Origin: Lentzea tibetensis
GTDB lineage: Bacteria > Actinomycetota > Actinomycetes > Mycobacteriales > Pseudonocardiaceae
Length of the DNA stretch: 64,000 nucleotides
Reading direction: 5' to 3'
NCBI RefSeq assembly: GCF_007845675.1
Contig: NZ_VOBR01000004.1
Location: forward strand, 1 to 64,000
Part shown: piece by piece, positions 3,004 through 13,328 of the stretch
Position numbering within the stretch: the stretch's first letter is position 1
Layout: each line of letters starts with the position of its first letter
Notes under the pieces: model-generated
Told to the model about the DNA's origin: nothing
The model's database searches: none
What the model saw: only the letters and a program-made list of their open reading frames with translations
Position numbers and translations under genes: made by a program

Positions 3004-4167
3004 ATGGCTTACTACCGCCAGGTCGGGGAGATCCCCCGAAAGCGCCACACCCAGTTCCGCAAACCGGACGGTGGCCTCTACGCGGAAGAGCTGATGGGAG
3101 TCGAGGGTTTCTCGAACGATTCGGCACTGCTCTACCACCGGTACCTGCCCACCGCGATCGTCGCCGCCGAGGTCGTCAAGGACGAGCGCGGACCCGTCTC
3201 CCCCAACCTTCCCCTGAAGCCCCGCCACTTCAAGACAGGCGACCTGACCTGGGCCTCCGACGAGGTCGACGCCGTCACCGGGCGGCGCAAGCTGTTCGGC
3301 AACCCGGACGTGGCGATCAACTTCGTGCGCGCGTCCGCGCCGTCGCCGCTGTACCGCAACGCGTTCGGCGACGAGCTGCTCTACGTCCAGACGGGCGCGG
3401 GCGTGATCGAGACGATCTACGGCGCGCTGACCGTCGGCGACGGCGACTACGTGGTGATCCCGACGTCCTGCACCTACCGGGTCGTGCCGTCCCAGCCCAT
3501 GAACATCCTGGTGCTGGAGGCGACCGGGCACATCGGGCCGCCCAAGCGCTACCTGTCAGCCAAGGGGCAGTTCCTGGAGCACTCGCCGTTCTGCGAGCGC
3601 GACCTCCGCGGGCCGTCCGCGCCGCTGCTCGTCGAAGGCGAGGACGTCGACGTGCTCGTGCGGCACCGCGCGGGCATCACGAAGTTCACCTACGCCAACC
3701 ACCCGTTCGACGTCGTCGGCTGGGACGGCTGCCTCTACCCGTGGGCGTTCAACGTCCGCGACTTCGAGCCGATCACCGGCCGCGTGCACCAGCCGCCGCC
3801 CGTGCACCAGACGTTCGAGGGCCCGAACTTCGTCGTGTGCTCGTTCTGCCCGCGCAAGGTCGACTACCACCCGCTGGCCGTGCCGGTGCCGTACAACCAC
3901 GCGAACGTCGACTCCGACGAGCTGATGTTCTACGTCGGCGGCAACTACGAGGCGCGCAAGGGTTCGGGCATCGGCATCGGCTCGATGTCGCTGCACCCGT
4001 CCGGCTGCACGCACGGCCCGCAGCCCGGCGCGGTGGAGGCGTCGCTCGGCGTCGACTACTTCGACGAGACCGCGGTCATGGTCGACACCTTCCGCCCGCT
4101 GGAGCTCGGCGAGGCCGCCGAGGCCTGCGAAGACCCCGGCTACGCCTGGACGTGGGCCCGCCGCTGA
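3004..4167 (+). CDS. hmgA: Homogentisate 1,2-dioxygenase
   Basis: 387 residues. A cupin-type Fe(II) dioxygenase that opens homogentisate to maleylacetoacetate. The family start M-A-Y-Y-R-Q-V-G-E-I-P is complete. The iron ligands appear in P-Y-N-H-A-N-V-D-S-D-E (His299 and the nearby acidic residues) and S-L-H-P-S-G-C-T-H-G-P (His337). The ATG is preceded by GGAGAG at a suitable distance. It is shorter than the eukaryotic enzyme (about 445) but normal for the actinobacterial form. It is divergent from the fahA operon with a shared control region. No homologue of glutathione-dependent maleylacetoacetate isomerase is seen nearby. Confidence 0.95.
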   Translation: MAYYRQVGEIPRKRHTQFRKPDGGLYAEELMGVEGFSNDSALLYHRYLPTAIVAAEVVKDERGPVSPNLPLKPRHFKTGDLTWASDEVDAVTGRRKLFGNPDVAINFVRASAPSPLYRNAFGDELLYVQTGAGVIETIYGALTVGDGDYVVIPTSCTYRVVPSQPMNILVLEATGHIGPPKRYLSAKGQFLEHSPFCERDLRGPSAPLLVEGEDVDVLVRHRAGITKFTYANHPFDVVGWDGCLYPWAFNVRDFEPITGRVHQPPPVHQTFEGPNFVVCSFCPRKVDYHPLAVPVPYNHANVDSDELMFYVGGNYEARKGSGIGIGSMSLHPSGCTHGPQPGAVEASLGVDYFDETAVMVDTFRPLELGEAAEACEDPGYAWTWARR

Positions 4168-4200: not shown

Positions 4201-5373
4201 GTGAGACCACGGTTGGTTCCCGGACGCTGGCAGGGGCTCGGCTCGTCCCCGCCCGTGCGGTGGGGCCTGTACTCGGGCAGCGGCAAGGTGCCGTACCAGG
4301 TGTGCGTCGACCTGGCCGCGGGCACCGCGAAGTGCAGCTGCCCGTCCCGGCAGTACCCGTGCAAGCACGCGGTGGGGCTGCAGGAGCTGGAACCGCCGGA
4401 GGCGCTGCCGCCGCCGTGGGTGGAGGAGTGGACCACCCGCAGGCGGCGCGAGCCTCTCGACGACTCTCCTGAGGCGGTGGAACGCCGTGCGCGCGCACGG
4501 TCGGCGCGCGTGGAGGCGCGGTCGTCGGCCATGGCGGGCGGCGTGGCCGGCCTGTCGGACTGGCTCGTGGACGTCGCAGGGGCGGGCACGGCGTCGCTGC
4601 CGGGTCGCAACGCGGCGTGGTGGGGGAACATCACGGCCCGCATGATCGACGCGCAGACACCCGGCCTGGCCTCGGCCGTGGCAGACCTGCAGGAGGTCGT
4701 CGCGCGCGGCGGCCCGCACTGGACGGTCGAGGCCGCGGACCGGCTCGGTTCGCTGCACCTGATGACGCGCGTGCAGCCGCCGTGGCGGCTGGGCCTCACG
4801 GTGACCGAGGAGAGCGTGAAGTCCGCCGAGGGGTGGTCGGACCGCTGGATCCCGTTGATGCGCGCGGAGAGCGACGACGGGCGCGTGCGCACGATCCGGC
4901 AGTGGGCGTGGGGCAGGCAGCGCGGCGAGTGGGTCGTCGGCGTGCGGCACTCGGCGATCGGCGTGCCGGTGCCGCTGTTGCCGCACGGGATGGAGAGCGC
5001 AGCAGAGCTGCACCCGTACCCCGGCGCGGCGCCTTTTCGCGTCGCACTGGGCGAGCTGGTGGGCAGCAGGACACCCGAGCCGATCCCGGTCGCGCCGTCG
5101 TGGCGGGGCGGGCTCGCCGGGCTGGAACCGTTGATCGCGGGTGATCCGTTCGCGCGGCTGTTCCCGTTGACGTGCGCGTCGGTGCGGTTCGCCGGCGGGC
5201 ACCTGGTCGACGCCGAACGCCGCGGCGTGGCGGTGCGGGACGACGGCGCGCTCGACACGGCGCTGGCGATCACCGGTGGCGCCGCGTTCGACGCGTGGGG
5301 GCTGTGGGACGGTCGCGCTTTCCGCGTCGGTGCCGTGGCGTCGCCGGGCGGACCGCCGGAGGTGGTCGGATGA
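4201..5373 (+). CDS. SWIM zinc-finger protein, first gene of MoxR/VWA operon
   Basis: 390 residues beginning with GTG. The SWIM finger is complete near the N-terminus: Cys45-x-Cys47 ... Cys54-x-His56 in A-K-C-S-C-P-S-R-Q-Y-P-C-K-H, the CxCxnCxH arrangement used for zinc and nucleic-acid or protein binding. The remainder is a long alpha/beta region of unknown fold with a charged Arg-rich stretch around residues 80-105. Its stop overlaps the next start (ATGA), the first of four tight couplings in the operon. In E. coli the SWIM protein YehQ sits beside the YehL MoxR ATPase, which supports a shared system. Confidence 0.85.
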   Translation: MRPRLVPGRWQGLGSSPPVRWGLYSGSGKVPYQVCVDLAAGTAKCSCPSRQYPCKHAVGLQELEPPEALPPPWVEEWTTRRRREPLDDSPEAVERRARARSARVEARSSAMAGGVAGLSDWLVDVAGAGTASLPGRNAAWWGNITARMIDAQTPGLASAVADLQEVVARGGPHWTVEAADRLGSLHLMTRVQPPWRLGLTVTEESVKSAEGWSDRWIPLMRAESDDGRVRTIRQWAWGRQRGEWVVGVRHSAIGVPVPLLPHGMESAAELHPYPGAAPFRVALGELVGSRTPEPIPVAPSWRGGLAGLEPLIAGDPFARLFPLTCASVRFAGGHLVDAERRGVAVRDDGALDTALAITGGAAFDAWGLWDGRAFRVGAVASPGGPPEVVG

Positions 5374-6782
5374 GGCAGCGGTGGCACGAGACCGTGCAGG
5401 CGCTGCTCGTCGGCACGAACCGGGGCGGCGGCGATCCGGTGCGGCTGCTCGACGACTGCGCCGCGTTCGGCGTGGCCGCGTTCGGTGCGACCGTGCCGCC
5501 GGTCGTCGACGCGCTGCCGATCGCCGAGGCGCCTCCGACGCCGAACCTGCCGAACCAGGCGGCGGTCGCCGTGCTGGACGCGGTGCTCGGCCTGGACGAC
5601 GAGGTGCTGCTGACCGAGTGGTGCGCGCTGGCCAGGGCGCACCGGGTCGTCGCGGAGCACCGCAAGCTGCCGGTGCTGCTCGCGATCGGCACCGCCCGTC
5701 CCGGTCTGCGCGCGGCGATCACCGAGGTGCTCGGGCCACGCGGCCGCTGGCTCGCCGCGACCCGTGAGGGCTGGGCGTGGGCGCTGGGTTCGCCGCAGGC
5801 GGTCGAGGAGATCCCGCTCGACGACGTGCTCGATCTGCCGAGCGCGCAACGGGTTCGCGCGCTGCGCCGCAAGCGGGCGTTCGATCCGGCGGGCACCGGT
5901 GCGTTCATCACCGAGCAGTTCGACGTCCAGCGCCGCGCGTCCGACCGCCAGGTGCTGGTGAGCGCGCTGGAGATCGGGCTCGGGGTCGATGACGAGGAGC
6001 TGCTGGAGCTGGCGCTCGACGACCGGTCGAGCGCCGTGCACGACGAGGCGTTGCGGCTGCTGCGCAAGTTGCCGGGCAGTTCACTGGCGCAGCGCGCCGA
6101 GGACCGGCTGGGGCGCGGGCTCTGGCTCACCGACGACGGCTTCGACGTGCAGACCGACGAGCTGTGGACGCGTCAGCCGGACGCCGGCGAAGAGCGCGAC
6201 CTGATGCGGGACGGCTCGGAGAAGGGCGTCGCCGGCCGGATCAGGGGTGCGGCGGCGAGCGTTCCGCCGAGTCACTGGACCGCTCGGCTGGAGACGGACG
6301 AGGCCGGTGCGGCGCGGGTGCTGCGGCAGGGCACGTGGGCGTCGGCGCTGCTGCGCGGCGTCGCGGACCGGCTGGGCGCGGCGCACGACCCGCGGCCGTG
6401 GGCGGTAGCGGCGGCGCAGACGCTGACCGGCATGGAGCAGCTGGAGATGCTGGGCGCGCTGCCGGACGAGGTCGCCGAGCAGGCTGTGGTCGCGGTGTCG
6501 GCGAGCTGGAACTACGACCTGCTCGACCACGCGTGCGCGCAGCTGCCGTCGCCGTGGTCGGCGGAAACCACGCGGGCGCTGCTGCACCGGTACGCGGCCC
6601 TGCCCGATCCGCGCTGGCGCCGCGGCCGTCCGCCGTCGGTGCTGCTGGCGCGCGGTGACGCGGACGTGCTCGGCGCGCAGTGGGCCGTGCTGACCGAGCG
6701 TTGGCCGGAGAACACGCTGGAGCTGGAAGTGCTGCGCCTGCGGATGAAACTTCGCGAGTCGTTCAACCAGGAGGACATGTGA
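5370..6782 (+). CDS. DUF5691 family protein
   Basis: 470 residues, starting with an ATG inside the stop of the SWIM gene. It is mostly helical with an acidic central region and resembles the DUF5691 family that accompanies SWIM and MoxR genes in actinobacteria. A helical-repeat character (L-L-D, A-L-R-L-L-R-K-L motifs from about residue 190) suggests a scaffold or adaptor rather than an enzyme. No catalytic motif, signal peptide or membrane helix is seen. It overlaps the MoxR start (ATGTGA). Biochemical role unknown. Confidence 0.75.
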   Translation: MRQRWHETVQALLVGTNRGGGDPVRLLDDCAAFGVAAFGATVPPVVDALPIAEAPPTPNLPNQAAVAVLDAVLGLDDEVLLTEWCALARAHRVVAEHRKLPVLLAIGTARPGLRAAITEVLGPRGRWLAATREGWAWALGSPQAVEEIPLDDVLDLPSAQRVRALRRKRAFDPAGTGAFITEQFDVQRRASDRQVLVSALEIGLGVDDEELLELALDDRSSAVHDEALRLLRKLPGSSLAQRAEDRLGRGLWLTDDGFDVQTDELWTRQPDAGEERDLMRDGSEKGVAGRIRGAAASVPPSHWTARLETDEAGAARVLRQGTWASALLRGVADRLGAAHDPRPWAVAAAQTLTGMEQLEMLGALPDEVAEQAVVAVSASWNYDLLDHACAQLPSPWSAETTRALLHRYAALPDPRWRRGRPPSVLLARGDADVLGAQWAVLTERWPENTLELEVLRLRMKLRESFNQEDM

Positions 6783-7861
6783 CCGCCGTGCTCAGGCCGA
6801 CGGCCGAACAGGAGTACGCCGCCGAGCTCACCGCGCTCGCGGCCGCCGACGACAGGCAGCGCCCGTCGAACTGGCGGCTCTCGCCGCAGGCGGTCGTGAC
6901 GTACGTGCTCGGCGGGACGCTCCCGGACGGCACGGTGATCACGCCGAAGTACGTGGGCGAACGGCGGCTCGTCGAGATCGCGGTCGGCACCCTGGTGACC
7001 GACCGCGCATTGCTGCTCGTCGGCGTTCCAGGCACGGCGAAGTCGTGGCTGTCCGAGCACCTGGCGGCGGCGATCAGCGGCGACTCGACGCTCGTCGTGC
7101 AGGGCACGGCCGGGACGTCGGAGGACCAGGTGCGCTACGGCTGGAACTACGCGCGCCTGATCGCGGAGGGCCCGTCGGAGAACGCGCTGGTGCCGTCGCC
7201 GGTGCTGCGCGGCATGCGGACCGGCGCGGTGGTGCGCGTCGAGGAGCTGACCCGCATGCCGTCCGAGGTGCAGGACTCGTTCATCACCGTGCTGTCCGAG
7301 AAATCGCTGCCGGTACCGGAGCTGAACACGCAGGTGCAGGCGGTGGCGGGCTTCACGGTGATCGCGACGGCGAACGACCGCGACCGCGGCGTGAACCAGA
7401 TGTCGTCGGCGCTCGCGCGGCGCTTCAACACCGTGGTGCTGCCGCCGCCCGCGACCGAGGACGCCGAGGTGGACATCGTGGTGGCACGGGCGACCCAGCT
7501 CGGCAAGGCGTTGGAACTGCCAGCCGAGCCGCCGGCTCTGGACGAGGTGCGCCGGGTCGTGCGGATCTTCCGCGAGCTGCGCAACGGGTCCACCGTGGAC
7601 GGCCGGACGCAGCTGAAGTCGCCGAGCGGCAGCCTGTCGACGGCCGAGGCGATCTCGGTGATCGCGTCGGGCATGGCGATGGCCGGTCACTTCGGCGACG
7701 GCAGGCTCGGTGCGGACGAGCTCGCGTCCGGGCTGCTCGGTGCGGTGGTGAAGGACCGGGTGTCGGACGCGGCGGTGTGGCATGAGTACGTGGAGACGGT
7801 GCTGAAGGAGCGTGCCGAGTGGCGTGACCTCTACCGCGCCTGCCAGGACCTGGTTTCGTGA
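6779..7861 (+). CDS. MoxR-family AAA+ ATPase (YehL type)
   Basis: 360 residues from GTG 6779. Walker A is G-V-P-G-T-A-K-S at about residues 82-89. The Walker B region reads A-V-V-R-V-E-E-L-T-R-M, with V-E-E where the family usually has D-E. Sensor 1 is I-A-T-A-N-D, and the arginine-finger region S-A-L-A-R-R-F-N is present. MoxR ATPases act with VWA proteins as chaperones that mature or remodel protein complexes; the VWA partner is three genes downstream. Starts and stops overlap on both sides, so subunit ratios are probably set by coupling. It is cytosolic. Confidence 0.92.
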   Translation: MTAVLRPTAEQEYAAELTALAAADDRQRPSNWRLSPQAVVTYVLGGTLPDGTVITPKYVGERRLVEIAVGTLVTDRALLLVGVPGTAKSWLSEHLAAAISGDSTLVVQGTAGTSEDQVRYGWNYARLIAEGPSENALVPSPVLRGMRTGAVVRVEELTRMPSEVQDSFITVLSEKSLPVPELNTQVQAVAGFTVIATANDRDRGVNQMSSALARRFNTVVLPPPATEDAEVDIVVARATQLGKALELPAEPPALDEVRRVVRIFRELRNGSTVDGRTQLKSPSGSLSTAEAISVIASGMAMAGHFGDGRLGADELASGLLGAVVKDRVSDAAVWHEYVETVLKERAEWRDLYRACQDLVS

Positions 7862-10002
7862 CCGATCGGGTCACGCTGCTGGGAATCCGGCACCACGGGC
7901 CCGGCTCGTCCCGCATGGTCGCGGCGGCGCTGGAGCGCGTGCGCCCTTCCGTGGTCCTCATCGAAGGCCCGCCGGAAGCGGACGCGTTGCTGCCGCACGT
8001 CCCGTCGCTGACGCCGCCGGTCGCCGTGCTGCTGCACGACGAGTCGGACCCGTCGTCGGCCGCGTTCTGGCCGTTCGCCGAGTTCTCGCCGGAGTGGCAG
8101 GCGCTGCGCTGGGCTGCTTCGAACGACGTCCCGGTGCGCTTCTTCGACCTGCCCGCCGCGGCGTCGCTGTCCGCCGACTCGGCTTCGGGCGGCTCGGTCG
8201 ACCCGATCGCGCTGCTGGCCGAGGCCGCCGGATTCGACGACCCCGAGCGGTGGTGGGAGGACGTCGTCGAGCACAGCGCGAGCGACCCCATCTCGCTGGC
8301 TTCCGCGGTGGCCGAAGCGATGTCCGGGGTGCGCTCGTCGCTGGTGGAAGGCGTGTCGGGCGTGGTCGGGGAGCACACGTTGCGCCGCGAGGCGTTCATG
8401 CGTCGGTCGCTGCGTCAGGCGCTGAAGGACTTCCCCGGTGAGGTCGCCGTCGTGTGCGGCGCGTGGCACGTGCCCGCGCTGACGGGACCGCTGCCGACGG
8501 CCACCTCGGACAACGCGCTGCTGAAGGGCCTGCCCCGGCGCAAGGTGTCCGGCACGTGGGTGCCGTGGAGCCACGGCCAGCTGGCCGCCGAGTCCGGCTA
8601 CGGCGCCGGCGTCGACTCGCCCGGCTGGTACGCGCACCTGTGGGAGCACCGCTCGGACGTCGTGCCGCGCTGGTTCGCCCGCGCGTGCAGCGTGCTGCGC
8701 TCCGAAGACCTGCCCGCGTCCACGGCGTCGGCCGTCGAGGCGGTCCGGCTCGCGGACGTGCTGGCCGCACTGCGCGGACGCCCGTCGCCCGGCCTGTCCG
8801 AGGTGACCGACGCGGCGCTCGCGGTGCTGTGCGGCGGCGACGAGGTGCCGTTGCGCCTGGTGCACCGCAAGCTCGTCGTGGGCGAACGGCTCGGCTCGGT
8901 GGGCGACGACGTGCCGCGCTCGCCGCTGGCCGCGGACCTGGCGCGGCTGCAGAAGCGGCTTCGGTTGCCACCGCAGCTGGAGCCGAAGCAACTGCGGCTC
9001 GACCTGCGCAAGGAGAACGACCGGGAGCGCTCGAAGCTGTTGCGGCGCCTGGAGGTGCTCGGCGTGCCGTGGGGCAAGCCGGACCGGACGAACTCGCTGG
9101 GCACGTTCGCCGAGATGTGGCAGCTGGCGTGGAACCCGGCGTTCGCGGTGTCGGTGGCCGTCGCCGCACGCCACGGCACGACCGTCGCGTCCGCATCGGA
9201 GACCGTGCTGCGCCAGCAGGCCGACGAGGCCGACCGCGTCGCCCGCGCGGCCGAGGTGCTCGCGCGGGCGGTGGGATGCGAACTGCCCGAGGCCGTCGAG
9301 GCCGGCCGGGTGGCTCTCGACCGCTGCGCCGCGGCGGCGACGGACGCCCTGGAGTTGCTGGCCGCGCTGCCCGAGCTCGCGCGGACCGTCCGGTACGGCT
9401 CGGTGCGCGGCACGGATCCCGAGCTGCTGCGGGTCGCACTGCACGGCCTGCTCGCCCGCGGTGCGGTCGGCCTGCCGCTTGCATGCCGCGGCGTCGACGA
9501 CGAGACCGCCGAGCAAGCACTGTCCGTTGTGGACGGTGCACACGAGGCGGTGCGCCTGGGCGCCGACGAGCCTCACCAGCAGACCTGGTGGGCGGCACTG
9601 GCGAAGCTCGCCGCGACACCGGACGCGCACGGCCTGCCGACCGGCCGGGCGACCCGCCTGCTGTGGGAGGCGGGCGAGCTGGACGGCGACGCGGTCGCGG
9701 CGAAGCTGCACCGCTCCGTGGCGACCGCGTTCGTGGCGGGCTTCCTGCGCGGCTCGGCGACGCTGCTCGCGGCGGACCAGCGACTGTTCGGGTTGATCGA
9801 CGACTGGCTGACGACGTTGCGCACCGCGGACTTCGACGACGCGCTGCCGCTGCTGCGCAGGGCGATCAGCGACTTCAGCCCGGCCGAGCGGCGGCTGCTC
9901 GGCGAGCGGGTGTCGGCGGGCGCCGTCGAGCCGGTCGACGACGAGTGGGACGAGGCCATCGCCCAACGGCTGGCCACGCACGTGCGGGAGCTGCTGGCAT
10001 GA
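7858..10002 (+). CDS. DUF5682 family protein of MoxR/VWA operon
   Basis: 714 residues. The N-terminal half begins V-T-L-L-G-I-R-H-H-G-P-G-S-S and contains V-L-I-E-G-P-P-E-A-D, then F-P-G-E-V-A-V-V-C-G-A-W-H, a pattern like that of TraB/ChaN-like haem- or metal-binding folds with conserved His and Glu. The C-terminal half is helical. It corresponds in size and position to E. coli YehM beside YehL. The gene is coupled to moxR (GTGA). The stop lies in GCATGA, which would normally couple to the VWA gene, but here 403 bp of foreign sequence intervene. Function unknown. Confidence 0.8.
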   Translation: MTDRVTLLGIRHHGPGSSRMVAAALERVRPSVVLIEGPPEADALLPHVPSLTPPVAVLLHDESDPSSAAFWPFAEFSPEWQALRWAASNDVPVRFFDLPAAASLSADSASGGSVDPIALLAEAAGFDDPERWWEDVVEHSASDPISLASAVAEAMSGVRSSLVEGVSGVVGEHTLRREAFMRRSLRQALKDFPGEVAVVCGAWHVPALTGPLPTATSDNALLKGLPRRKVSGTWVPWSHGQLAAESGYGAGVDSPGWYAHLWEHRSDVVPRWFARACSVLRSEDLPASTASAVEAVRLADVLAALRGRPSPGLSEVTDAALAVLCGGDEVPLRLVHRKLVVGERLGSVGDDVPRSPLAADLARLQKRLRLPPQLEPKQLRLDLRKENDRERSKLLRRLEVLGVPWGKPDRTNSLGTFAEMWQLAWNPAFAVSVAVAARHGTTVASASETVLRQQADEADRVARAAEVLARAVGCELPEAVEAGRVALDRCAAAATDALELLAALPELARTVRYGSVRGTDPELLRVALHGLLARGAVGLPLACRGVDDETAEQALSVVDGAHEAVRLGADEPHQQTWWAALAKLAATPDAHGLPTGRATRLLWEAGELDGDAVAAKLHRSVATAFVAGFLRGSATLLAADQRLFGLIDDWLTTLRTADFDDALPLLRRAISDFSPAERRLLGERVSAGAVEPVDDEWDEAIAQRLATHVRELLA

Positions 10003-10405
10003 ACACGCCCGATGATCGCGAGTTGTCCACAACCGCTCAGTTGTCCACAGATCGCCGAATGACAGTTTCCGCAGGTCAAGGGCCGGTAGACTGGAGCAGG
10101 GGACGCCCCCCAGGGCGGGCGGGGGCTGCTTTGCGGGCGGCGAACAGCACAACCACGCCTGCTGCGACACCGCGCACCGCGCCATCGCCGGGCTGCGCAA
10201 CCCCGCCATCAGCGCACTGCGCCAAGCCTGAGCCACCAACATCACCACCACACTCCGACGCAGAGCCACAAACGCCACGCGGCCACTGCTCGGAATCCCC
10301 GCCCGACCAACACAACGACTTTGCAGGAACCCTGCCGAGACGGGCCGAGACGGTCGTCGGCTCGTGGAAGCAGCGCGGCGGGCGCGCGGCTGGGCGGGTG
10401 GCGGC
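10003..10405 (+). mobile_element. Inserted segment with ISAs1-like transposase relic inside the MoxR/VWA operon
   Basis: Not a normal gene. Around 10133-10302 the plus strand reads L-R-N-P-A-I-S-A-L-R-Q-A, stop, A-T-N-I-T-T-T-L-R-R-R-A-T-N-A-T-R-P-L-L-G-I-P, which matches the C-terminal end of ISAs1-family transposases with an in-frame stop. Before it are two direct copies of AGTTGTCCACA (10021-10031, 10039-10049). From ATG 9999 a 136-codon frame runs through the whole insert without a stop and ends at 10409 overlapping the VWA start, so coupling could still pass through it. Codon use in that frame is unlike the neighbours. Confidence 0.7.
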
Positions 10406-11542
10406 GTGAGCGAACGGTTGCGGCGGTGGCGGTTGCTCCTCGGCCCGAGCGCCGAGGAGATCTCCGCGCTGGGCGAGGACGACCAGCACCGGGACGCGGC
10501 GCTGACCGGCCTGTACGGCGGCGGCGAGCGCGGCGCTGGCCTGGGCGGCAGCCAGCCGCAGCTGCACCGCTGGTTGGGTGACGTGCGCAAGTACTTCCCG
10601 ACCAGCGTCGTGCAGGTGATGCAGCGGGACGCGGTGGAGAAGCTCGGCCTGAAGCAGCTCCTGCTCGAACCCGAGCTGCTGGCGACGGTCGAGCCGGACG
10701 TGAACCTCGTCGGCACGCTGCTGTCGTTGTCGCAGGCGATTCCGGCTCGCACGCGCGAAACGGCGAAAGCGGTGGTGCGCAAGGTCGTCGAGGACGTCGA
10801 GCGGCGCATCGCGGACCGGCTGGTCGAGGCGGTGCGCGGCGCGGTCGACCGGTCGCAGCGCACGCGCAGGCCGCAGCTGGCCGACGTCGACTGGAACGCG
10901 ACGATCAGGGCGAACCTGAAGAACTACCAGCCGCAGCACGCGACGGTCGTCGTCGAGGACCTGGTCGGGTACCGGCGACGCAGTCGGACGGCGGCGCTGC
11001 GGGACGTGGTGCTGCTGGTCGACCAGTCCGGGTCGATGGCCGAGTCGCTGGTGCACGCGGCGGTGCTGGGTTCGGCGATGGCGTCGATCCGGTCGCTCAG
11101 CACGAAGCTCGTCGTGTTCGACACCGAGGTCGTCGACCTGACCGACCAGCTGAGCGACCCGGTCGACGTGCTGTTCTCCGCGCAGCTCGGCGGTGGGACG
11201 GACATCAACCGCGCGGTCGCGTACGGGCAGACGCTGATCAGTCGGCCGACGGACACGACGGTCGTGCTGATCACCGACCTCTACGAGGGCGGCTCCGAGC
11301 ACGAGCTCCAGCGGCGGGTCAGGGAGATGGTGGCGAGCGGCGTGACCGTGGTGGTGCTGCTGGCGTTGAGCGACAGCGGCACCCCGTCGTACGACCACGA
11401 GCTGGCGGCGAAGCTCTCGGCCATCGGCGCGCCCGCGTTCGCGTGCACGCCGGACAGGTTCCCCGAGCTGATGGCCGCGGCGCTGCGCAAGGACGACCTC
11501 ACGGCGTGGGCGGAGGACGAGGGGATCGCGGTGCGCCGCTAG
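10406..11542 (+). CDS. VWA-domain protein (CoxE/YehP-like), partner of MoxR ATPase
   Basis: 378 residues from GTG 10406, where the family-typical start M-S-E-R-L-R-R-W-R-L-L-L-G begins. A helical N-terminal region is followed by a von Willebrand A domain with an intact MIDAS: D-Q-S-G-S-M (about residue 204), Thr in G-G-G-T-D-I-N and Asp in L-I-T-D-L-Y. The MIDAS binds a divalent metal and usually mediates partner binding in MoxR-VWA chaperone pairs. No signal peptide, so cytosolic. The stop overlaps the stop of the convergent membrane gene by a few bases. Confidence 0.9.
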   Translation: MSERLRRWRLLLGPSAEEISALGEDDQHRDAALTGLYGGGERGAGLGGSQPQLHRWLGDVRKYFPTSVVQVMQRDAVEKLGLKQLLLEPELLATVEPDVNLVGTLLSLSQAIPARTRETAKAVVRKVVEDVERRIADRLVEAVRGAVDRSQRTRRPQLADVDWNATIRANLKNYQPQHATVVVEDLVGYRRRSRTAALRDVVLLVDQSGSMAESLVHAAVLGSAMASIRSLSTKLVVFDTEVVDLTDQLSDPVDVLFSAQLGGGTDINRAVAYGQTLISRPTDTTVVLITDLYEGGSEHELQRRVREMVASGVTVVVLLALSDSGTPSYDHELAAKLSAIGAPAFACTPDRFPELMAAALRKDDLTAWAEDEGIAVRR

Positions 11543-11994
11543 CGGACGACGATGCGGCCGAGCGTCAGGAACGGGCGGCCGGACGTGATGACCACGGCGC
11601 GGCCGCGGTCGTCCGGACCAGCCAGCCACACCCGCCGCGAGTGCCGCACGAGCACGCGCACCCGTTCAGGCATCTCGGGCAGCCGCAGGTAGGAGCGGTC
11701 GGAGCCGTCCATCTCCAGGTAGGCGGACCGGCCGATCCGGCGACCGGGCACGAAGTGGACGTCGACGGGACGCCACTCCCGCGCGGACATCAGGCGGCGG
11801 ACCTTGCGGCGGGCGATCAGGTGCCGCAGGCCGGGAGCGGCCAGCTCGATGATCACCGGTACGGACACCACGGCGATCCACGGCACGCCGATGACCATCA
11901 CGACCACGCCGCACGCCAGTGCGAGACCGAGGAACTTGGCCGCGCGCCGGTCTGCCCCCGCCAGGCAGTTCCCGCTCCACGAGTCCAAGTCCAC
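11539..11994 (-). CDS. Membrane protein, paralogue of the upstream gene
   Basis: About 151 residues. Two hydrophobic segments near the N-terminus (L-G-L-A-L-A-C-G-V-V-V-M-V-I-G-V and the following stretch) are followed by a soluble C-terminal domain ending R-V-W-L-A-G-P-D-D-R-G-R-A-V-V-I-T. The neighbour at 12021 has the same plan and the matching R-V-W-L-V-A-P-D-S-R-G-N-T-V-V-T, so the pair arose by duplication. Start uncertain: GTG 11994 or TTG 11988 behind AGGAG, or TTG 12024 overlapping the upstream stop. No known family recognised. Confidence 0.65.
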   Translation of the reverse strand: MDLDSWSGNCLAGADRRAAKFLGLALACGVVVMVIGVPWIAVVSVPVIIELAAPGLRHLIARRKVRRLMSAREWRPVDVHFVPGRRIGRSAYLEMDGSDRSYLRLPEMPERVRVLVRHSRRVWLAGPDDRGRAVVITSGRPFLTLGRIVVR

Positions 11995-12020
11995 ATCTCC
12001 TGAGGTTTCCGGCCAGATGA

Positions 12021-12485
12021 TCAACGAAACACCCTCGCCTCGAAAAGACGGGGTACACCTCGGAACGTGACCACGGTGTTGCCGCGCGAGTCCGGCGCGA
12101 CGAGCCACACGCGACGGTGACGTGTGACACGGCTGCGGGCCAGCGGGCCGACGCGCACGGACAGCATCAGCGGGGGCGAGCCGAGCACCACGAGCCTGCC
12201 GCCCTCCCACCGAGCTTCGGCGAACTGCCAGGGTTCGCCCGCCGGTAATCGCAGCGGGCGGCGACGCAGCACGACGAAGAGCACGACGGCCGCGAAGATC
12301 AAGAGGACGAAGGCCAGCGCCGACGACCAGGAGAGGACGAAGACCAGCACCAACTGCAGCCCGAAGGCGCTGATCGCGGCCAGCGTCCACCAGAGCGCGC
12401 GCCGACTTGCGCGGTCCAGGCAGTGCTGGGTCCACTGGTCTTTCACAGCCGCCCTGTCGGTGGACGGCTTGTTCGGCACGACCAC
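12021..12485 (-). CDS. Two-helix membrane protein of unknown function
   Basis: About 154 residues. Two transmembrane helices (L-W-W-T-L-A-A-I-S-A-F-G-L-Q-L-V and A-L-A-F-V-L-L-I-F-A-A-V-V-L) precede a basic turn and a C-terminal soluble domain shared with the downstream paralogue. GTG 12485 is preferred over GTG 12497 because GGAGG lies five to six bases upstream. It is the first gene of a two-gene operon divergent from the IdeR-controlled DUF2470 gene. No function can be assigned. Confidence 0.65.
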   Translation of the reverse strand: MVVPNKPSTDRAAVKDQWTQHCLDRASRRALWWTLAAISAFGLQLVLVFVLSWSSALAFVLLIFAAVVLFVVLRRRPLRLPAGEPWQFAEARWEGGRLVVLGSPPLMLSVRVGPLARSRVTRHRRVWLVAPDSRGNTVVTFRGVPRLFEARVFR

Positions 12486-12536
12486 GGCAACCTCCACCCG
12501 ACACGGTACAGCGGAGGCTTCCGTCGAGTGGCGAAG

Positions 12537-12557: not shown

Positions 12558-13328
12558 ATGAGCGACACCGAGACACGGCGGCCGCCGGCGCCACACCCGG
12601 CCGAACGCGCGCGCACCATCGCTGCGCGCAGTGGTCCTGCCGCGCTGCTTCCGCAGTCCGGCACGCGGACCAGCCCGTTGCTGCATCACGTGCACCCCTG
12701 CGGCACGACGGTGTTGCTGCTCCCCGACTCCCACCCATTGGTCGCGACGCTGTGGCAGACGCCACGTGCCGAGGCGACCGCGATGCTCGAGATCGCCGAC
12801 CAGGCGCCGGTTCCGCTGCGCGAACCGACCCGCGGGCTGCTGTGGATCACCGGCTGGGTGCAGGCGCTCGACGGCACCGCGGCGCGGGACGAGGTGCTGG
12901 CCGTCGCGGACGCCAAGCCGGACCACCGGCTGCTCGACGCGGGCAACGGCGCGACGGTCCTGCGGCTCACGCCCGCGTCGCTCGTCGTCGCGGACGCCGA
13001 GGGCACGTCGTCGCTGCGGCCGGAGCAGTTCGCGAGTGCGCAGCCGGATCCGTTCTGCGGCAGCGAGGACCACTGGCTGCGGCACCTCGAGATCGCGCAC
13101 CCGGACGTCGTGAGCCAGCTCGCCAGGCACCTGCCGGACCAGCTCAAGGGCGGGAACGTGCGGCCGCTCGGCCTCGACCGGTACGGCCTGCGGCTGCGCG
13201 TCGAGGAGCTGGACTCCGATCACGACGTGCGCATCGCGTTCTCGCGACCGGTGGACACGCCCAAGGAGCTCGGCGCGGAGCTGCGCAGGCTGATGGGCTG
13301 CCCGTTCCTCACCCAGAGATCGGTGTGA
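12558..13328 (+). CDS. DUF2470-containing protein, iron regulated (HugZ-like)
   Basis: 256 residues. The N-terminal part resembles the split-barrel FMN/haem-binding fold of pyridoxamine-oxidase-like proteins, and residues about 170-250 fit DUF2470 (H-L-E-I-A-H-P-D-V-V ... L-D-R-Y-G-L-R-L). Proteins of this architecture include HugZ/HutZ, which handle haem. The iron box directly before the start implies expression under iron starvation, consistent with haem or siderophore iron recovery. The haem role is inferred; family membership is fairly clear. Confidence 0.75.
   Translation: MSDTETRRPPAPHPAERARTIAARSGPAALLPQSGTRTSPLLHHVHPCGTTVLLLPDSHPLVATLWQTPRAEATAMLEIADQAPVPLREPTRGLLWITGWVQALDGTAARDEVLAVADAKPDHRLLDAGNGATVLRLTPASLVVADAEGTSSLRPEQFASAQPDPFCGSEDHWLRHLEIAHPDVVSQLARHLPDQLKGGNVRPLGLDRYGLRLRVEELDSDHDVRIAFSRPVDTPKELGAELRRLMGCPFLTQRSV

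Follow-up and report, generated by a model that had tools for sequence, protein, structure and literature searches.

A conserved five-gene MoxR-VWA system of the YehL kind in Lentzea tibetensis and a probable TIKI-type hydrolase domain in its DUF5682 protein

Described MoxR-VWA systems and the Lentzea locus

In NorQD, CbbQO, CoxDE, and RavA-ViaA, a MoxR ATPase of the AAA+ class (ATPases associated with diverse cellular activities) is paired with a von Willebrand factor type A (VWA) protein carrying the residues of the metal ion-dependent adhesion site (MIDAS). In PMC13036017 and PMC9976466, the VWA finger of NorQD is described as inserting into the AAA+ pore, with force relayed to the target. 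YehL is a named MoxR subfamily (PMC3893208 and PMC11834572), and the former lists it separately from RavA and from the CbbQ/GvpN/NorQ group. The literature searched gave no client of the YehL subfamily and no function for YehM, DUF5682, or DUF5691. Here we describe a locus of the YehL kind in the actinomycete Lentzea tibetensis. The window, that is, the whole stretch analyzed, comprises positions 1 to 64,000 (64,000 nucleotides) of contig NZ_VOBR01000004.1. On its plus strand lie genes for a SWIM zinc-finger protein (4201-5373; Pfam SWIM E 1.9e-5, 24.5 bits with a cut-off of 19.6), a DUF5691 protein (5370-6782; Pfam DUF5691 8.7e-62), a YehL-type MoxR AAA+ ATPase (6779-7861; Pfam AAA_5 6.2e-36), a DUF5682 protein (7858-10002; Pfam DUF5682 5.9e-229), and a CoxE-type VWA protein (10406-11542; Pfam VWA_CoxE 2.2e-52). 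They form a real, old, and conserved five-gene system of YehL-kind MoxR-VWA. The N-terminal domain of the DUF5682 protein is probably a hydrolase of the TIKI/TraB/ChaN type, an assignment that is new here, while the MoxR-VWA remodeling pair is of a known kind.

The pairs named above share the MoxR protein and the MIDAS-bearing VWA protein with the window, but they belong to other MoxR subfamilies, and the window pair is tied to DUF5682, SWIM, and DUF5691. E. coli K-12 has a related run, yehI-yehL-yehM-yehP-yehQ, in which YehL is the MoxR protein, YehM a DUF5682 relative, YehP the VWA protein, and YehQ a SWIM protein. Identities of the window proteins are 41% for MoxR to YehL, 26% for DUF5682 to YehM, and 36% for VWA to YehP. 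The E. coli set differs in that the E. coli control has no DUF5691 match and the DUF4132 protein YehI is found instead. In addition, its SWIM gene is last rather than first, and a search with the window SWIM protein at E 1e-6 does not recover YehQ. A second set (L058), of the yehI type, exists in the genome of L. tibetensis itself. It lies on the minus strand of contig 22 (2-8193), reaches the contig end, and encodes WGR-DUF4132, MoxR, DUF5682, and VWA proteins.

Kaur et al. 2020 (PMC7159879) describe MoxR-vWA ternary conflict systems, which likewise unite MoxR and vWA with additional components. The window differs from them in that its bpMoxR match is under the cut-off (25 vs 27 bits). The words SWIM, YehL, and TraB are absent from the main text of that paper.

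Conservation of the module

A scan of GTDB species genomes gives at least 584 confirmed DUF5682 relatives, and the best 80 loci, a biased sample, were analyzed. The five genes exist in the same order and on the same strand in 63 of these 80 loci, which come from seven phyla (Actinomycetota, Bacteroidota, Cyanobacteriota, Planctomycetota, Pseudomonadota, Chloroflexota, and Verrucomicrobiota). The sequence-only reading of the window had proposed a coupled operon, named conserved co-occurrence in related genomes as one check, and named the lack of a conserved neighborhood as one refutation. That outcome was tested for and did not occur. The 17 deviating loci include five Lentzea loci with a moved VWA gene, one (L116) with VWA upstream, four with SWIM inverted (DUF5691 is inverted too in three of these), three with DUF5682 away from MoxR (L090, L098, and L141), and four cut by a contig end (L104, L108, L109, and L140). 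In two cyanobacterial assemblies with DUF5682 apart, MoxR and VWA are found on other contigs. In a third such assembly, a metagenome bin, VWA is present and no MoxR match was found. Four-base overlaps are seen at junctions 1 to 4 in 33/70, 44/72, 28/76, and 40/70 loci, respectively.

No sixth gene of the set was found among the 80 loci. The neighbor survey used mechanical open reading frames (ORFs) of at least 120 amino acids, some of them spurious, and blastp at 1e-8; the largest neighbor cluster covers 8/80 loci, all from the window's own family. A DUF4132 gene is found downstream in three Bacteroidota loci.

In 246 actinobacterial genomes, DUF5682 is present in 19 and absent from 227. DUF5691 is above the cut-off in 17 genomes, all among those 19 (Fisher p 2.4e-24, counting these 17), and in three more genomes, all without DUF5682, DUF5691 scores under the cut-off (E 1e-4 to 8e-4). 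Every one of the 30 DUF5682 genes in the 19 genomes, the window included, has a YehL-like MoxR and a YehP-like VWA gene within 20-kb stretches, as expected for parts working together. Of these loci, 17 are of the window type, three are of the yehI-L-M-P type (L057, L058, and L065), six fuse DUF5682 and VWA into a single ORF (L056 and L060-L064), and four are more remote. The MoxR-DUF5682-VWA triad is the core of the module.

A DUF5682 tree was made by a quick method from 67 of the 80 loci and the window. A single branch sets Actinomycetota (39) apart from all other rows, and another does so for Bacteroidota (14). Cyanobacteriota have a support of 53, and the three Pseudomonadota and two Planctomycetota rows do not group. 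Eight groups on this tree need 8 changes, where the minimum is 7. The window's clade is on a long branch (1.02), and the nearest DUF5682 among the matches listed is that of Lentzea flava (79% identical). Judged from these sequences, descent looks mostly vertical within the biased sample, with many absences, which argues against a mobile defense cassette or island.

The N-terminal domain of DUF5682

The DUF5682 protein consists of an N-terminal TIKI/TraB-like domain (residues ~1-240) and a helical C-terminal part of ~470 residues. Its AlphaFold2 (AF2) model is confident, with a predicted local distance difference test score (pLDDT) of 90.9 and a predicted template modeling score (pTM) of 0.87. 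The hint of a TIKI domain came from re-inspection of the Foldseek list, the motif, and profiles. The TIKI superfamily includes TraB/PrgY/GumN, ChaN, and the erythromycin-esterase type, and its signature GxxH...E...R...GxxH is present in DUF5682 by three measures: 68/68 aligned rows, the strand positions in the model, and comparison with TraB as a yardstick. Four plus-strand motifs make up the signature. Motif I (G9-I-R-H12-H13, 7882-7896) has G9, R11, H12, and H13 in 68/68 rows, and motif II is Glu36 (7963-7965), again in 68/68. Motif III (R177-E178-x-x-M181-R182, 8386-8403) has positions 177, 178, 181, and 182, and motif IV (G201-A-W-H204, 8458-8469) has G201, A202, and H204, conserved in all 68 rows. 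In the model, both GxxH motifs and the Glu are at or just past the ends of three strands, and the Arg is on the helix before the last strand. Unlike other members of the superfamily, DUF5682 adds the helical C-terminal part and travels with a MoxR-VWA motor.

Profile comparisons with the TIKI families are weak but in the register of the motif when alignment A12 is used, which is broader (30 rows) and performs better than A8. A12 includes rows that are cut N-terminally (L059 and L066-L068) and rows that end before motif IV (L059 and L060). The remote DUF5682-like genes L059 and L066-L068 are found near a VWA-MoxR pair, a further architecture of the triad; in the three of them long enough to show motif IV, GAWH is replaced by GAFH. 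The TraB and ChaN families are missing from 40/40 genomes of the window's class, and the yardstick proteins were therefore drawn from other phyla.

Several results weigh against a TIKI assignment. The hhalign probabilities are only 24% for ChaN, 4% for TraB, and 1% for the erythromycin esterase (Ere) over ~30 columns, while the accepted pair ChaN-TraB itself scores 3% by the same yardstick. The narrower alignment A8 is weaker (TraB p 0.044 and ChaN p 0.011, with controls at 0.085-0.17), and Ere against A8 gives p 0.075 out of register. With the whole DUF5682 model, no Foldseek match reaches E 0.001. The Foldseek list consists chiefly of helical-repeat proteins (best E 0.037), which filled it, and known TIKI structures such as ChaN are absent from it. 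A Tetrahymena chain (DQ), putatively the TraB-family subunit, appears only at rank 21 (E 0.13) and is not recovered by the TraB sequence profile. The DUF5682 sequence profile finds no relative in the PDB, where the ChaN profile has 2g5g as its sole clear match. The Glu of the ExH motif of ChaN (the 2His/2Glu form) is missing in DUF5682, which has I10/R11 there. Note that this Glu is not defining for the whole superfamily because TraB rows carry T at that place. With these points weighed, the assignment of DUF5682 to the TIKI type has good support.

The motor and the SWIM-DUF5691 arm

The sequence-only reading placed the MoxR protein in the YehL subfamily and asked that its V-E-E Walker B be compared with family members. 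Of the 34 AAA_5 matches in the genome, eight were scored with a profile of YehL-type MoxRs that includes the window protein and YehL. The window MoxR reaches 582 bits and the copy on contig 22 reaches 533, whereas none of the remaining six exceeds 46, which bears out the subfamily. Walker A (GVPGTAKS, 7022-7045, plus strand), the Walker B Glu pair, and the RRF arginine region are invariant columns of the MoxR alignment A2. The Walker B variant itself (R-V-E-E, 7235-7246, plus strand) is R-x-E-E in all 18 aligned YehL-type MoxRs, while the two further AAA_5 proteins from the genome that were aligned at the same site have DE (L008) and DD (L004). The catalytic second Glu is retained and the usual Asp is replaced by Glu, so VEE is a trait of the subfamily. 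Searched against the PDB, the MoxR profile has midasin as its best match (4e-27), and the VWA profile finds no chain at E 0.01. In the VWA protein the start of the MIDAS, DxSxS (D220, S222, and S224; 11021-11035, plus strand), is invariant in 17/17 rows of A3.

The SWIM protein is composed of the SWIM finger, a helical middle, and a C-terminal part resembling tandem OB folds. The SWIM motif C45xC47...C54xH56 (4333-4368, plus strand) is invariant in 16/16 rows of A4 and conserved in at least 90% of the 52 rows of A7. The protein may carry tandem OB folds, although the OB-fold matches are under the trusted level. DUF5691 has weak alpha-repeat/HEAT matches (best E 0.078) and is perhaps a helical-repeat scaffold. 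Near-copies and cut or weak rows were dropped from alignments A1-A7, leaving 23/27 references in A1, 18/31 in A2, 17/31 in A3, 16/17 in A4, and, each with the window added, 67/80 loci in A5, 57/74 in A6, and 51/73 in A7.

SWIM and DUF5691 exist in one ORF in 6/80 loci, from three Nocardia, Actinoplanes, Phytohabitans, and an Isosphaeraceae planctomycete, and also in L048 and L055, while DUF5682 and VWA are fused in L056 and L060-L064. In Streptomycetes the set is divided divergently between SWIM and MoxR. These fusions and the Streptomycete split share one border, which separates a SWIM-DUF5691 arm from a MoxR-DUF5682-VWA arm. We infer from both arrangements that the arms are physical subcomplexes. 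The earlier suggestion that SWIM and the two DUF proteins are the client-recognition or effector parts is sharpened, not proven: DUF5682 is enzyme-like and SWIM-DUF5691 recognition- or scaffold-like.

Proposed mechanism and alternatives

We propose that the MoxR/VWA motor switches or matures a TIKI-type hydrolase and is steered by the SWIM arm, with a probability of roughly 0.45. The N-terminal domain of DUF5682 would act as the enzyme. MoxR would form an AAA+ ring, with the CoxE-type VWA protein serving as adaptor in the manner of NorQD and CbbQO, and the two would remodel DUF5682, switching on or maturing its site, so that hydrolysis would be ATP-gated. The SWIM-DUF5691 arm would carry this motor-enzyme unit to a target or trigger, quite possibly a nucleic acid or a nucleic-acid-bound protein. 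That the motor gates the enzyme is speculative, as are the recognition of nucleic acid and the substrate class (peptide or ester), and the target of the motor may instead be a third protein.

In a bolder form of the same idea, a nucleic acid would be the trigger of an ATP-gated TIKI hydrolase. The SWIM/OB part on a DUF5691 scaffold would sense the target, MoxR would pull via VWA, and the DUF5682 site would open and cut a bound protein or ester. We regard this form as doubtful. We know of no earlier AAA+-driven TIKI enzyme. If the TIKI active site in DUF5682/YehM is real, four residues and a candidate hydrolase give a direct test, and E. coli YehM would be the laboratory member of such AAA+-driven enzymes. 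If MoxR-VWA motors gate a hydrolase, their role is wider than that of cofactor-insertion chaperones.

A chaperone for metal insertion or maturation is a rather unlikely alternative to the gated hydrolase. Here MoxR and VWA would act like CoxD-CoxE or NorQD on a client encoded elsewhere, with DUF5682 as an accessory. The CoxE type of the VWA protein in Pfam and the NorQD and CoxDE precedents fit this explanation, as does yehM being among the mutated genes in a copper-evolution study. However, no single enzyme gene is shared by more than 8/80 loci as a neighbor of the module, and the strictly conserved catalytic-type residues sit within DUF5682 itself.

Stress response or protein quality control, in which a remodeling chaperone and a protease would deal with damaged or nucleic-acid-bound proteins, appears improbable. 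It is in keeping with the joint occurrence of an AAA+ motor, a hydrolase-type domain, and fingers of the DNA/protein-binding type, and with the WGR-DUF4132 protein added in the sister yehI-type set.

Equally improbable is a conflict or anti-phage system in the MoxR-vWA ternary style, whose SWIM arm would sense invader nucleic acid and whose motor would free the hydrolase: a sensor arm, a MoxR-vWA switch, and an enzyme match the logic of PMC7159879 and presence is patchy (19/246 genomes), but the only PADLOC-DB 2023 match of the five proteins scanned is PDC-S62 at E 0.064, the neighbor survey has no widely recurrent gene, the DUF5682 tree tracks phyla unlike that of a mobile defense island, and the Pfam results for the five products name no third component of the published ternary systems (VMAP, iSTAND, beta-propeller, or FtsH-type), the Pfam coverage of these four being unchecked. 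As an anti-phage island the locus is rejected on the PADLOC value, the neighbor clusters, and the mostly vertical tree.

Gene junctions and flanking genes

The sequence-only reading saw five genes coupled by start/stop overlaps apart from one inserted scar, and the junctions agree with it. The first three have 4-base overlaps read from the sequence (ATGA at 5370, GTGA at 6779, and GTGA at 7858). At the fourth, the stop of DUF5682 lies in ATGA at 9999 and is followed by a 403-bp insertion (10003-10405) before the VWA gene, whose start is most likely GTG 10406 rather than 10364. An open frame of 136 codons runs from ATG 9999 to a stop at 10407-10409, on the GTGA that starts VWA. Since this frame bridges the insertion, the DUF5682-VWA coupling is not necessarily lost. 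The same junction is directly coupled in Kutzneria and has gaps in Umezawaea and Saccharothrix, and in the five Lentzea loci with a moved VWA (L069-L073) that gene is on the opposite strand, some kilobases upstream of SWIM. The DUF5682-VWA junction is loose in the window's clade.

The insertion is partly a dispersed repeat. At least 13 additional matches to it exist elsewhere in this genome, a lower bound as 40 of 152 candidates were scored; 12 of these coincide at least in part with bases 10-142 of the insertion, and the remaining one with bases 284-341. The ~115-bp dispersed repeat at 10013-10129, overlapped by 12 of the 13 matches, holds TTGTCCACA twice. This short sequence presumably resembles the actinobacterial DnaA box. 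The insertion may have a transposase origin; two pieces gave no Pfam match.

Downstream of the module, minus-strand ORFs exist between VWA and a DUF2470 gene (12558-13328; Pfam 4.6e-12), and one of them (11539-12504) is without any Pfam match. Upstream, a gene matching HgmA in Pfam (homogentisate dioxygenase-like, 3004-4167) stops ~33 bp before SWIM. Because it is on the same strand and so close, the module transcript may begin further upstream.

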